DNA of 64,000 nt, taken from Methylohalomonas lacus. Its GTDB lineage: Bacteria > Pseudomonadota > Gammaproteobacteria > Methylohalomonadales > Methylohalomonadaceae. Positions 53,926-62,177 of this stretch are shown in pieces; the stretch's first letter is position 1, and the number at the start of each line of letters is the position of its first letter. Position numbers and translations under genes: made by a program. The stretch lies in NCBI RefSeq assembly GCF_024808875.1, contig NZ_JANUCT010000014.1:1-64000 (forward strand), in the 5' to 3' direction. The notes below the pieces were generated by a model that saw only the letters and a list, made by a program, of their open reading frames with translations, was not told the origin of the DNA and searched no databases.

Positions 53926-54900
<975 letters not shown>

Positions 54901-54921
54901 CGTGAGCGCAGGCGCTTCGCG

Positions 54922-55021
<100 letters not shown>

Positions 55022-58033: not shown

Positions 58034-58126
58034 TTGCGTCAGCAGCGCCGTGCCCCGATAGGCCGGCGTTGCGTACCTTTAGCCGGCACGAGGCAGTCGC
58101 CCGGCGACATGTTTGGATGCCCTTGT

Positions 58127-58144
58127 TATACTGGTACGGGTATA
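58127..58144. promoter_or_regulatory. predicted CsoR-family operator at the regulator promoter
   Basis: TATACTGGTACGGGTATA is an imperfect palindrome (TATAC-NN-GTAC-NN-GTATA). Read on the minus strand it gives TACCC-N6-GTATA, the same outline as the site at 59365. It overlaps a likely extended -10 element (TGT-TATACT, 58124-58132), 20 bp before the regulator start codon, where a bound repressor would block its own transcription. Confidence 0.5.
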
Positions 58145-58163
58145 GCAATCACGGGTACGGGTT

Positions 58164-58478
58164 ATGGCTACGGCGAAAGACAATCTCTCCAGTCCCGAGG
58201 ACTGGGACGCCGATTGGGAAAAGAACAAGGCAGCCCTGCTGGCGCGTCTGAAGCGGACCGAAGGGCAGATTCGCGGTATCCAGGCGATGATCGAGACCGA
58301 TGCCGAGTGCGAGAAAGTCGCCCAGCAGATGGCGGCGGCGCGCAAGGCGCTGGACCGGGCGTTCTACAATATGCTGTCCTGCGTGATGGAACGCGAACTC
58401 GCCTGTCAGCACCTGGATGCGGCAACCGCCCGCGAACGCCTTAACTACGCGACCCAGTTGTTATCCAAGTACGGCTGA
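58164..58478 (+). CDS. CsoR/RcnR/CstR-family repressor, atypical ligand set
   Basis: 104 residues of the all-helical CsoR (DUF156) family: LLARLKRTEGQIRGIQAMIETDAEC, then VAQQMAAARKALDRAFYNMLSC. Cys49 is at the conserved first-ligand place, but 25 residues later, where CsoR and FrmR have His, is Val74; a Cys at 73 and another at 81 are nearby. So a canonical copper site is missing, and a dithiol (persulfide) sensor like CstR is possible. The gene sits beside sulfide and persulfide genes, and an operator-like site overlaps its promoter. An extra 20-residue N-terminal extension is present. Confidence 0.85.
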   Translation: MATAKDNLSSPEDWDADWEKNKAALLARLKRTEGQIRGIQAMIETDAECEKVAQQMAAARKALDRAFYNMLSCVMERELACQHLDAATARERLNYATQLLSKYG

Positions 58479-58482
58479 ACGT

Positions 58483-58899
58483 TCAGTGTCGTGCGCCCAA
58501 GCGGTCGGCCACGAGGCCGCCGGCGGCCACGGCAGCCAGGAACGGCAGTCCTTCCTGCCAGTGAATGCCGAGCGCCGCCAGCGCTGGTCCCGGACAGTAA
58601 CCGCCGATACCCCAGCCGATACCGAACAACGCCGCGCCGGTGATCAGGCGCGCATCCAGATCGGTTGTCCGTGGCAGATAAAAGCGCGTCGCCAGCAGCG
58701 GCTGGTGTCGTTTCAGGACCAGCGCAAACGCCGGCAGCGTCACGGCCACTGCGCCGAGCATGACCAGCGCCAGGCTCGGGTCCCAGGCCGCACTGACATC
58801 GAGAAACGCCAGTACCTTGAGCGGGTAGACCATGCCCGACAGCGCCAGGCCGATGCCGAAAACGACGCCTGCCAGCAGGGCGCTCAGATTGCGCAGCAT
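58483..58899 (-). CDS. YeeE/YedE-type transporter, second half (DUF6691)
   Basis: 138 residues with four predicted membrane helices. The YeeE/YedE signature GGYCPGPALAALG with its conserved Cys lies near residue 100, and FGIGLALSGMVYPLKVLAFLD near residue 15 matches the first motif. Together with the next gene it makes a split version of the YeeE/YedE transporter, linked in other bacteria to thiosulfate or sulfur uptake. It overlaps its partner by one base and is convergent with the CsoR-family gene, 4 bp apart. Confidence 0.85.
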   Translation of the reverse strand: MLRNLSALLAGVVFGIGLALSGMVYPLKVLAFLDVSAAWDPSLALVMLGAVAVTLPAFALVLKRHQPLLATRFYLPRTTDLDARLITGAALFGIGWGIGGYCPGPALAALGIHWQEGLPFLAAVAAGGLVADRLGARH

Positions 58900-59321
58900 C
58901 AGTACAGTCCCAGCCAGTGACGGCTGACGGCCGTCGCCAGCACTGCCGTGACCATAAAAATGGCCGTGGCGACCACAGAGCGCGCGGAGCGGCGGCCGAT
59001 ACCGCAGACGCCATGGCCGCTGGTGCAGCCGCTGCCGAGACGGGTGCCCAGGCCGACCAGGAATCCGGCGCCGAGCAAGGCAACCAGGGGAAAGTCGGCC
59101 CGTTGCGGGATGTCGCTGCCGAACAGGTGGTGGAAGCTGCCGGCGCCGACTACCAGCCCGGCGAGGAACAGTATCTGCCAGGGCTGCCGATCGCGGTGCA
59201 GCAGGCCATGAAACAGGCCACTGATGCCGGCGATGCGGCCGTTGAACAGCAGCAGTGCGGTTGCCGCCAGGCCGATCAGCAAACCGCCGGCGACTGCGGA
59301 CAGGGGTGTGAATTCCGTCAT
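58899..59321 (-). CDS. YeeE/YedE-type transporter, first half
   Basis: 140 residues, about four membrane helices. The signature LVGLGTRLGSGCTSGHGVCGIGRRSARS near residues 88-115 contains the three conserved Cys of the GCTSGHGVCG motif, which form the sulfur-relay site in YeeE-type transporters. LFNGRIAGISGLFHGLL near residue 25 also fits. It is the promoter-proximal gene of the pair and is divergent from sqr, with an operator-like site in between. Its substrate is probably thiosulfate or another sulfane-sulfur compound (inferred). Confidence 0.86.
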   Translation of the reverse strand: MTEFTPLSAVAGGLLIGLAATALLLFNGRIAGISGLFHGLLHRDRQPWQILFLAGLVVGAGSFHHLFGSDIPQRADFPLVALLGAGFLVGLGTRLGSGCTSGHGVCGIGRRSARSVVATAIFMVTAVLATAVSRHWLGLY

Positions 59322-59364
59322 AATCGCTTAATCCACTTGCATTCCAGTCACGTGTTTAATACGG

Positions 59365-59378
59365 TACCCCATAGGGTA
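59365..59378. promoter_or_regulatory. predicted CsoR-family operator in the divergent yeeE/sqr promoter
   Basis: TACCC-CATA-GGGTA is a perfect 5-bp inverted repeat of the C-tract/G-tract form bound by CsoR-family repressors, and continues as GTATATAA. It lies 27 bp before the sqr start and about 45 bp before the yeeE-type start, so one site could control both directions. A similar site overlaps the regulator promoter at 58127. Confidence 0.6.
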
Positions 59379-59404
59379 TATAAAAACGAGGTGAAAAACC
59401 AGAC

Positions 59405-60628
59405 ATGCAACACCAGATCGTCATTATCGGCGGTGGTGCCGCGGGCATTACCGTCGCTGCCAGTCTTGCACGTAAACGTCCCGCGCTCGATATTGTTATT
59501 GTCGAGCCCGCCGACAGTCACTATTACCAGCCGGCTTTCACCCTGGTCGGGGGCGGCGCCTACGATGTAAACAAGACGCGCCGCCCTGAAAGGGATTGCA
59601 TACCGCCCGGGGTAACCTGGATTCAGACAGCCGCCCGTGAAATCGAACCTGCCCGCAACCGAGTGCTGCTGGCGGATGGCCGCCAGCTGGGCTATGAGCA
59701 CCTGGTCGTGTGCCCGGGCCTGCAGCTGGACTGGCACAACATCGACGGACTGGAACAGACGCTGGGGCACAACGGCGTCTGCAGCAATTATCTGTCGGAG
59801 TACGCAGCCTATACCTGGGAGTGCCTGCAGCAGTTCAGCGGCGGTACGGCCCTGTTTACGCAGCCGGCGATGCCAATCAAGTGTGCCGGTGCACCGCAGA
59901 AAATAATGTACCTCGCCTGTGATCACTGGCGCCAACGCGGCATGCTTGAAAACGCGGCCGTCCATTTCTGCCTGCAGGGTGCCGCCCTGTTTGGCGTGCC
60001 CGAGTTTGTGCCGCCGTTGCAGCGGGTTGTCGACCGTTATGGCATACAGGTCGACTATGGCAATGACCTGGTCGCCGTCGACGGGCCGAACAAGCAGGCC
60101 ACATTCGCAGTCAAGGACGGTGACGGCAATACGACGCACGTCACACGCGCGTTTGACATGTTGCATGTCACGCCACCGCAGAGCGCGCCGGATTTCATCA
60201 AAACCAGCCCGCTCGCCAATGAGGCCGGCTGGGTTGATGTCGATCAGGCGACCCTGCGGCACAACCACTACGAAAACATCTACGGCCTGGGCGACGTCGC
60301 CGGTACGCCGAACTCGAAAACGGCGGCTGCGGTGCGCAAGCAGGCGCCGGTGGTGGTCAATAATCTCATCGCCGCCATAGATGGCCCTGATCGCCACTGC
60401 GTCTACGACGGCTACAGTTCCTGTCCCCTGGTGACCAGCTATCGGTCGGTCATTCTGGCCGAGTTTCGCTACGGTGGTGAAGTCACACCGAGTTTTCCCG
60501 TGGACCCGTATCGCGAGCGCTACAGCATGTGGCTGTTGAAACGCTACGGTCTGCCGCCGCTGTACTGGGACTACATGCTGAAGGGCTATGAAATGGATAT
60601 ACCCCATAAGGCCAGACAGCCGGAATGA
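59405..60628 (+). CDS. sqr: sulfide:quinone oxidoreductase, type II
   Basis: 407 residues. The FAD-binding motif is IVIIGGGAAGITVAASLA at residues 5-22; HYYQPAFTLVGGG near 39 is characteristic of type II SQR, the mitochondrial-like branch. The redox cysteines are Cys160 (PIKCAGAPQKIMYL) and Cys340 (YDGYSSCPLVTSY). It oxidises sulfide to a persulfide on a thiol acceptor and reduces quinone at the membrane surface. The TSUP gene overlaps by four bases and the persulfide dioxygenase gene follows, so the product can be passed on directly. Confidence 0.92.
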   Translation: MQHQIVIIGGGAAGITVAASLARKRPALDIVIVEPADSHYYQPAFTLVGGGAYDVNKTRRPERDCIPPGVTWIQTAAREIEPARNRVLLADGRQLGYEHLVVCPGLQLDWHNIDGLEQTLGHNGVCSNYLSEYAAYTWECLQQFSGGTALFTQPAMPIKCAGAPQKIMYLACDHWRQRGMLENAAVHFCLQGAALFGVPEFVPPLQRVVDRYGIQVDYGNDLVAVDGPNKQATFAVKDGDGNTTHVTRAFDMLHVTPPQSAPDFIKTSPLANEAGWVDVDQATLRHNHYENIYGLGDVAGTPNSKTAAAVRKQAPVVVNNLIAAIDGPDRHCVYDGYSSCPLVTSYRSVILAEFRYGGEVTPSFPVDPYRERYSMWLLKRYGLPPLYWDYMLKGYEMDIPHKARQPE

Positions 60629-61473
60629 TGGCGATACTGCTGGGCATCATCGTCGGACTGGCGCTGGGGTTGACCGGCGGCGGCGGCTCGATCCTGGCAG
60701 TACCGTTACTGATCTACGGCCTGGATGTGGCGCCGAAAAGTGCAATTACGCTATCGCTCGCGGTGGTGGCGTTGACAGCGCTGTTCGGTGCATTGATGGC
60801 CTGGCGCCATCGACTGCTGGAGTTGCGTGCGGCGATGATATTTTCGGCGGCCGGCATAGTGGCGGCGCCGGCCGGCATTTTACTCGGTGATCAGGTGTCG
60901 GATCGGTGGCTGCTGATCGGATTTGCCGTACTGATGATGATCGTGGCACTGCGCATGCTGGCTAACGCCCTGCGTCATCCCGAACAAGCCAGCGTCGTGC
61001 GTGCCGATTTCGAGCATGTGGGGCTGAATGATACCGGCACTGTGTGCCATTACAGTCATGACGGCCGGCTACGACTGACAGCACCCTGCGGACTGGTGCT
61101 GGCGTTGATGGGAGTGCTGGCCGGTCTGTTGTCGGGCCTGTTCGGGGTTGGTGGCGGTTTTGTCATCGTACCGGCGCTGATGCTGGTTACCGAGATGAGT
61201 ATACATCGGGCCGTGGCGACATCCTTGCTTGTCATCACCCTGGTAGGCCTAAGCGGCACGGCGTCGGCGCTGGCTGGCGATCGGCCGCTGGACTGGTTTG
61301 TTGGCGGCCTGTTTCTCATTGGCGGCCTGATTGGCATGGGACTCGGCCGCGCTGTTGCGCACCGACTCGCCGGTCCGCGTCTGCAACAGTTGTTCGCGCT
61401 GGTGATGATCGCGGTAGCGACTTATCTATTGATGCAACAGTGGGCGGTAATGCCCACGGGAGTGATGACATGA
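60625..61473 (+). CDS. TSUP family (TauE/SafE) sulfur-compound exporter
   Basis: 282 residues in two repeats of about four membrane helices. The repeat signatures are GLALGLTGGGGSILAVPLLIYG near residue 10 and AGLLSGLFGVGGGFVIVPALM near 166. A hydrophilic loop (residues about 117-150), with Cys and His residues (DTGTVCHYSHDGR), separates the halves. TSUP proteins export or import sulfite, thiosulfate and organosulfonates; sulfite export fits best, since the next gene makes sulfite. It overlaps both neighbours by four bases, which implies a tightly coupled operon. Confidence 0.88.
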   Translation: MMAILLGIIVGLALGLTGGGGSILAVPLLIYGLDVAPKSAITLSLAVVALTALFGALMAWRHRLLELRAAMIFSAAGIVAAPAGILLGDQVSDRWLLIGFAVLMMIVALRMLANALRHPEQASVVRADFEHVGLNDTGTVCHYSHDGRLRLTAPCGLVLALMGVLAGLLSGLFGVGGGFVIVPALMLVTEMSIHRAVATSLLVITLVGLSGTASALAGDRPLDWFVGGLFLIGGLIGMGLGRAVAHRLAGPRLQQLFALVMIAVATYLLMQQWAVMPTGVMT

Positions 61474-62177
61474 TTTTCAGACAGGTTTATGACCATACCT
61501 CGAGTACCTATACCTACATTATGGCCTCGGGACATGGGCGCGAGGGCCTGATCATCGATCCGGTCAAGGAGCTTGCCGACACCTATCTGACCATAATCGA
61601 GCAACTGGATCTGAAGCTGGTGCGCGCGATTGATACGCACACTCACGCCGATCATGTGACTGCGCTGGGCGATCTGCGCGAGCAGACCGGCTGCCAGACC
61701 TACATGGGCAAATACAGCAAGGCAGATTGTGTATCGGTATACGTGGACGAGGACGAGATTATCGATGCGGACGGCATCAAGCTGCGCGCGATCTATACAC
61801 CGGGGCATACCAATGAGTCATTCAGCTTTTTGATCGAAGACGGCGGCCCGACCATGGTATTTACCGGCGATGTATTGCTGATTCGTGGCAGCGGCAGAAC
61901 CGACTTCCAGGGCGGCGATCCGCACAAGTCATATGATTCGATTGTGAACAAGCTCTTCACGCTGAACGACGAGACACTGGTGTATCCGGCGCATGACTAC
62001 AAGGGCTGGACGGCCTCGAGTATCGGTGAGGAGAAACGCTTCAATACGCGCCTGGCGGGCAAGAGTGAAGCCGAGTATGTGGACATCATGAACAAGCTGA
62101 ATCTGCCGGATCCTAAACTCATGGATGAGGCCATCCCGGCCAATCTCGCGTGCGGCAACATCAGGCAGGCATCATAA
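61470..62177 (+). CDS. ETHE1-like persulfide dioxygenase (metallo-beta-lactamase fold)
   Basis: The ATG at 61470 overlaps the TSUP stop and gives 235 residues. Metal-site residues are His57, His59, Asp61 and His62 (THTHADHVT), His113, Asp134 and His175. GRTDFQGGD at 142-150 and YPAHDYKG near 172 separate ETHE1-type dioxygenases from glyoxalase II. It would oxidise glutathione or other persulfide to sulfite with O2, using one Fe(II). There is no rhodanese fusion, unlike staphylococcal CstB. It is the last gene of the sqr-TSUP-dioxygenase operon. Confidence 0.9.
   Translation: MIFRQVYDHTSSTYTYIMASGHGREGLIIDPVKELADTYLTIIEQLDLKLVRAIDTHTHADHVTALGDLREQTGCQTYMGKYSKADCVSVYVDEDEIIDADGIKLRAIYTPGHTNESFSFLIEDGGPTMVFTGDVLLIRGSGRTDFQGGDPHKSYDSIVNKLFTLNDETLVYPAHDYKGWTASSIGEEKRFNTRLAGKSEAEYVDIMNKLNLPDPKLMDEAIPANLACGNIRQAS

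Follow-up and report, generated by a model that had tools for sequence, protein, structure and literature searches.

The window, the whole 64-kb stretch of Methylohalomonas lacus DNA analyzed here, contains a gene for a small repressor-family protein set beside five genes that resemble sulfur transport and sulfide oxidation genes (Table 1). The protein matched the Pfam family PF02583 (Trns_repr_metal, DUF156, CsoR/RcnR) with 71.2 bits against a curated cut-off of 22.8 (E 1e-19), and no second DUF156 gene was found in the 2.76-Mb genome. The sqr, tauE, and pdo-like genes overlap one another and are divergent from the yeeE/DUF6691 pair. The start of the pdo-like gene was inferred from its overlap with tauE, and its top NCBIfam match, the sulfur transferase/dioxygenase Blh, fell under the cut-off. 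Since the matches of both the SQR-like and the dioxygenase-like proteins lie below curated cut-offs, the substrates of these enzymes are predicted rather than fixed exactly. Judged from these matches, the gene set looks like a kit for carrying sulfur species across the membrane, converting sulfide to persulfide and persulfide to sulfite, and exporting the sulfite. Elsewhere in the window, at approximately 54880-54960, the frame following a coproporphyrinogen-oxidase-like gene contains EIRDTRYEIRDTK, a direct repeat that is short and in phase; the DNA here is probably non-coding.

Table 1. Features at the regulator locus, with positions counted from the first nucleotide of the window
Feature	Position	Strand	Details
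Sigma-70-like csoR promoter, GCGACA-17-TATACT	58104..58132	+	Putative; consensus match alone
Predicted operator O1, TATACTGGTACGGGTATAGC	58127..58146	+	Overlaps csoR -10; top matrix site, score 22.0
CsoR/DUF156-family repressor, 104 aa	58164..58478	+	C49 (X), C73 (Y-1), V74 (Y), E78 (Z), C81
DUF6691 half of YeeE/YedE-type sulfur transporter	58483..58899	-	Pfam PF20398, 130 bits
YeeE/YedE (Sulf_transp) half	58899..59321	-	Pfam PF04143 just above cut-off; weak TsuA similarity
Predicted operator O2, TATACCCTATGGGGTACCGT	59361..59380	-	Between divergent yeeE and sqr; second matrix site, score 18.1
Sulfide:quinone oxidoreductase (SQR)-like flavoprotein, nearest type III SQR	59405..60628	+	Pyr_redox_2; NCBIfam SQR_III_seleno E 2.5e-62, under curated cut-off
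TauE/SafE exporter family	60625..61473	+	Pfam PF01925, 166 bits
ETHE1/Blh-type persulfide dioxygenase (PDO)-like, metallo-beta-lactamase fold	61470..62177	+	Pfam PF00753

Predicted operators and gene context

Sites resembling TATACY-N5-GGGTA were found upstream of the regulator gene in several relatives. When the window was scanned with a matrix derived from eight sites in relatives, none of them from the window, O1 and O2 ranked first and second of approximately 128,000 positions, and the scores in eight shuffled windows reached at most 13.9, compared to 22.0 and 18.1 for the two sites. A 16-base consensus written from the two window sites, TATACYNNNNNGGGTA, has exactly two matches in the 2.76-Mb genome, O1 and O2 (the reversed control has none); this form is therefore absent from all other loci of the genome. 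The predicted regulon thus comprises csoR itself and the sulfur genes on either side of O2. A strict regular expression for the operator matched upstream of the regulator in 4 of 54 relatives, where 0.2 matches were expected, indicating that a large part of the clade either has not conserved the operator or has it in another form. Both predicted window operators resemble the ATACC-N6-GGTAT operator of ScCsoR from Streptomyces coelicolor (PMC7533328).

Relatives were sampled from 80 loci in named genomes and from further genomes reached by profile search. A sulfur gene lies within 5 kb in 35 of the 54 loci encoding both Cys49 and Cys73, compared to none of the 35 loci with Cys49 but without Cys73, a contrast that is suggestive and not a tally of independent events, since the Cys49-only group is mostly one lineage. 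With the query set used, no sulfur gene was detected within 5 kb of the remaining 19 loci. In Comamonadaceae relatives a PDO-rhodanese fusion gene stands beside the regulator, mostly directly downstream, and other neighbors encode rhodanese, YeeE/DUF6691, SQR- or flavocytochrome-like proteins, and YgaP-like rhodanese. One relative (L152) has a gene set nearly identical to that of the window, and another (L156) has PDO, TauE, and rhodanese genes beside the regulator. A gene that we take, by eye from its sequence, to be SoxB-like (thiosulfohydrolase; L153:5328-7367) directly abuts a further relative with both cysteines, hinting that thiosulfate oxidation is also controlled.

Several other arrangements were observed among the relatives. 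Two Ottowia-type relatives that have lost both cysteines (P49/T73) still adjoin a PDO-rhodanese or rhodanese gene. The mostly Oxalobacteraceae loci L061-L066 and L069-L095 encode Cys49 without Cys73 and have no sulfur genes nearby; many share a CDP-alcohol phosphatidyltransferase gene and other unrelated genes as context, and the sensed signal has probably changed in this lineage. The Hydrogenophaga loci L046-L058, which encode both cysteines, have conserved NAD-epimerase-like, GST-like, and CCA-adding-enzyme-like genes and no sulfur genes within 5 kb.

Residue register and cysteine conservation

The protein aligned with M. tuberculosis CsoR ungapped through helix 2, with a shared motif of C49, Q55, A58, L63, D64-R65-A66, and M70-L71. 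This register puts Cys49 at position X, Val74 at position Y (that of the CsoR and FrmR histidine), Glu78 at position Z (that of the second cysteine of CsoR and CstR), and Cys73 at Y-1. A one-residue helix deletion between residues 71 and 73, which would shift Cys73 into Y, is conceivable but less parsimonious, because the motif is gap-free against CsoR as far as M70-L71. The earlier note had likewise put Cys49 at the first ligand position and Val74 where CsoR and FrmR have histidine, with Cys73 one residue off, and the same alignment, which revealed neither His nor Cys in the standard register at Y or Z, bears out its claim that a canonical copper or formaldehyde site is missing.

The protein has the fold of CsoR (Cu), RcnR/InrS (Ni/Co), and FrmR (formaldehyde), and, like them, has the X cysteine where helix 2 begins, but differs in lacking the Y histidine, a Cys or His at Z, and Pro2. 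The Cu(I) CsoR signature of Cys at X, His at Y, and Cys at Z is consequently absent, as is the pair of His residues at Y and Z that marks RcnR (29 bits to the RcnR model compared to a cut-off of 138). FrmR-like chemistry was dismissed because the N-terminus reads MATAKD, without the Pro2 characteristic of FrmR, and Y is not His; the score to the FrmR equivalog model was 36 bits compared to a cut-off of 133. A metal site was dismissed because the Y and Z ligands are missing throughout the clade. CstR is defined by cysteines at X and Z, 29 residues apart, by linkage to sulfide or persulfide genes, and by persulfide- or polysulfide-driven release from DNA; the window protein has the linkage and may be released in this way, but carries Glu78 at Z and its second conserved cysteine at Y-1. 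It is a CsoR/RcnR family member that departs from CstR in the defining cysteines, and it probably works like CstR.

The spacing of Cys49 and Cys73 (C-X23-C) recurs at 54 loci and is carried by a proteobacterial clade. When 14 diverse members were aligned, both cysteines proved invariant, as did the family core residues. Residue 74 is M, V, S, L, A, T, E, or F and residue 78 is G, A, E, D, N, or T, with His at the former and Cys or His at the latter in none of the 54 loci. Cys81 is rare among relatives and not conserved, and it was dismissed as part of the sensor. Conservation thus goes beyond chance for Cys73 and not for Cys81. Of the earlier proposal that the off-register cysteines form a new dithiol, the part involving Cys81 falls away. 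A new thiol arrangement of Cys49 and Cys73 is credible, given that the canonical residues for metal and formaldehyde sensing are missing, that the spacing is unlike the C-X28-C of CstR, and that the clade is often found beside sulfide oxidation genes. No description of the C-X23-C arrangement was found in the literature searched; its novelty is provisional because the search did not cover the main study of sequence clusters, Fakhoury 2021, which is reportedly the key CstR paper containing CsoR-family clusters.

A tree computed after removal of both cysteine columns separated 54 rows of the wider clade from 34 metal- or formaldehyde-type rows with support of 94/72, which is not strong. Cys73 needs five changes on this tree, a number that a single gain plus four losses could explain. 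Oxalobacteraceae have kept Cys49, with mostly Ser, Ala, Asn, or Gly at residue 73, and an Ottowia-type lineage (L059, L067, L068) has lost both cysteines, with Pro at 49 and Thr or Asp at 73. An apparent Cys73 in three other sequences (L109, L113, L119) was an alignment artefact of dropped insert columns; the real reading is KDHAACC with a Y histidine, and the rows were recoded for the tree. These three adjoin genes that, recognized by eye, are presumably multicopper-oxidase-like.

Structure and known sulfur sensors

An AlphaFold2 monomer prediction from 33 sequences gave a CsoR-type three-helix fold with a mean pLDDT of 84 (helices 11-44, 49-80, and 86-103). In the model Cys49 is the first residue of helix 2, Cys73 lies within that helix, and Cys81 lies just past its end. 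Foldseek matched the model to CstR, InrS, CsoR, and FrmR, and the best PDB match by both fold and sequence was S. pneumoniae CstR (7mq1/7mq3). By analogy with these proteins, the window protein would be a DNA-binding tetramer. In known sites X' adjoins Y and Z of the partner subunit, as in FrmR, where the site consists of Cys35, His60, and His64 (PMC5016687) and His60 lies 3.2 A from Cys35' (PMC5146963). An idealized helix model constrained by the X'-Y and X'-Z distances of the canonical site provides a rough estimate of the distance from Cbeta of Y-1 to Cbeta of X', with a median of 11.0 A, a 5th percentile of 9.3 A, and a minimum of 7.4 A. At a separation of roughly 9-11 A, a direct Cys49-Cys73' disulfide is unlikely without movement. 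Cys73 would therefore be no simple substitute for the Z cysteine; either the end of helix 2 must move or unwind, or Cys73 has a different role.

The persulfide sensors of the CsoR fold described in the cited papers have their cysteines at X and Z (PMC9774590, PMC7533328, PMC10318464). CstR from S. aureus, S. pneumoniae, and E. faecalis and YrkD share with the window protein the CsoR fold, the conserved X cysteine, and neighbors that handle sulfide or persulfide. However, S. aureus CstR has its second thiol at Z (Cys31/Cys60, 29 apart, C-X28-C; PMC9774590), while the window protein has Glu78 there and its second thiol at Y-1, with Cys49 and Cys73 only 24 apart. One paper gives Cys31 and Cys62 for E. 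faecalis CstR, a slightly different spacing (PMC9405070), and B. licheniformis YrkD, which represses sqr/pdo and senses sulfane sulfur, is described with the two conserved cysteines of CstR (PMC9918477). ScCsoR (SCO0620) of S. coelicolor senses sulfane sulfur, represses pdo, tauE, and rhodanese genes, and needs both Cys37 and Cys66 (PMC7533328). It resembles the window protein as a CsoR-like repressor of pdo/tauE-type sulfur genes with a similar operator, but its cysteines are 29 apart (X and Z) and its circuit is described without a YeeE or SQR gene (PMC7533328). TTHA1953 of Thermus thermophilus, a two-cysteine CsoR-family repressor of sulfur oxidation genes, differs in having Cys39 and Cys68 29 apart (X and Z), in controlling distant sox genes, and in that no response to NaHS was seen (PMC10318464). 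The second cysteine thus sits elsewhere than in the sulfur sensors of the family described in these papers, at a place common to many related proteobacteria. In proteobacteria, BigR and SqrR regulate an equivalent sulfide oxidation gene set (PMC5823870, PMC9995734); they belong to another protein family and fold (ArsR), and here a CsoR-fold protein appears to take their role.

Proposed mechanism and alternative explanations

The analyses establish the fold and family, the lack of metal and formaldehyde residues, the conserved Cys49/Cys73 pair, the sulfur operon, and operator-like sites that occur in this genome only at this locus; we infer that the protein binds DNA, what induces the genes, and how and with which residue Cys73 reacts. 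The repressor, tetrameric by analogy, would sit on O1 at its own promoter and on O2 in the divergent region between yeeE-DUF6691 and sqr-tauE-pdo, keeping the sulfide oxidation genes off. When persulfide or polysulfide rises in the cell, Cys49, where helix 2 begins, would be persulfidated as the primary reactive thiol. The second thiol would be Cys73, which lies close to where this helix ends and would probably come from the partner subunit, and a polysulfide bridge between the two or a double persulfide would lower the affinity for DNA and induce the genes. The strongest evidence for this function is provided by the sulfur operon together with the predicted operators, neither of which the earlier note mentions, and it is most likely that the gene switches on the neighboring sulfide-oxidizing genes when reactive sulfur appears. 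A CstR-like repressor of the local sulfide oxidation genes that responds to persulfide or polysulfide, with Cys73 as its functional second thiol, is the reading toward which we lean, while an actual Cys49-Cys73' polysulfide link is a more tentative proposal. Counting against this reading are the distance in the idealized helix model, the 19 loci with both cysteines but no sulfur gene detected within 5 kb, the two P49/T73 relatives that still adjoin such genes, and the predominance of one lineage among the 35 Cys49-only loci. Leaving aside the role of Cys73, it is highly probable that the protein is a persulfide-responsive repressor of the operon, because an explanation in which Cys49 acts alone shares the same biology.

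In that explanation Cys49 alone senses persulfide, with Cys73 serving as a helper or structural residue or forming a Cys73-Cys73' link, and X and Y-1 would not make up a new dithiol. The separation of approximately 11 A between Cys49' and Cys73 in the idealized geometry is in its favor, as are the retention of Cys49 in Oxalobacteraceae where Cys73 has been lost and the behavior of the EcFrmR C35A variant, which still makes intermolecular disulfides and must do so via another cysteine (PMC5146963). However, the invariance of Cys73 in the diverse alignment, the lack of sulfur neighbors in the lineage without it, and the need of ScCsoR for both of its cysteines (PMC7533328) argue against this explanation, which is rather unlikely. 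It is less probable still that the protein is a redox or electrophile sensor for peroxide, quinone, or aldehyde whose control of sulfur genes is incidental. Oxidation abolished DNA binding by the sox gene regulator TTHA1953, another CsoR-family protein, which showed no NaHS response in vitro (PMC10318464), and OsmC or CMD-family genes adjoin several loci encoding both cysteines; but the regulon predicted in the window contains no functions beyond sulfide oxidation and transport, and sulfane sulfur is what close functional analogues sense (PMC9918477, PMC7533328). The dominance of metal sensors in the family and the presence of three cysteines could also suggest a metal sensor whose site has been altered to consist of Cys49, Cys73, Cys81, and an acidic or His residue. 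This is very improbable, as His is missing from Y, and both Cys and His from Z, across the clade, Cys81 is not conserved, and the neighbors are sulfur genes instead of metal efflux genes.

The CsoR-fold repressors serve as a model for the way in which a small number of residues near a single cysteine can adapt the same scaffold to copper, nickel, formaldehyde, or persulfide. A clade whose second thiol lies elsewhere on the helix would provide a test of whether persulfide sensing hinges on the exact X/Z geometry. For the sulfide oxidation gene sets of proteobacteria, ArsR-type sensors are the usual expectation. It is possible, as a broader and more tentative reading, that a proteobacterial CsoR-fold subfamily senses persulfide via an inter-subunit X/(Y-1) cysteine link, with a movement of helix 2 unlike that in CstR, and replaces the ArsR-type BigR/SqrR over sulfide oxidation operons. 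The protein described here may thus represent a candidate regulator for such gene sets in Hydrogenophaga, Limnohabitans, other Comamonadaceae, and various gammaproteobacteria.
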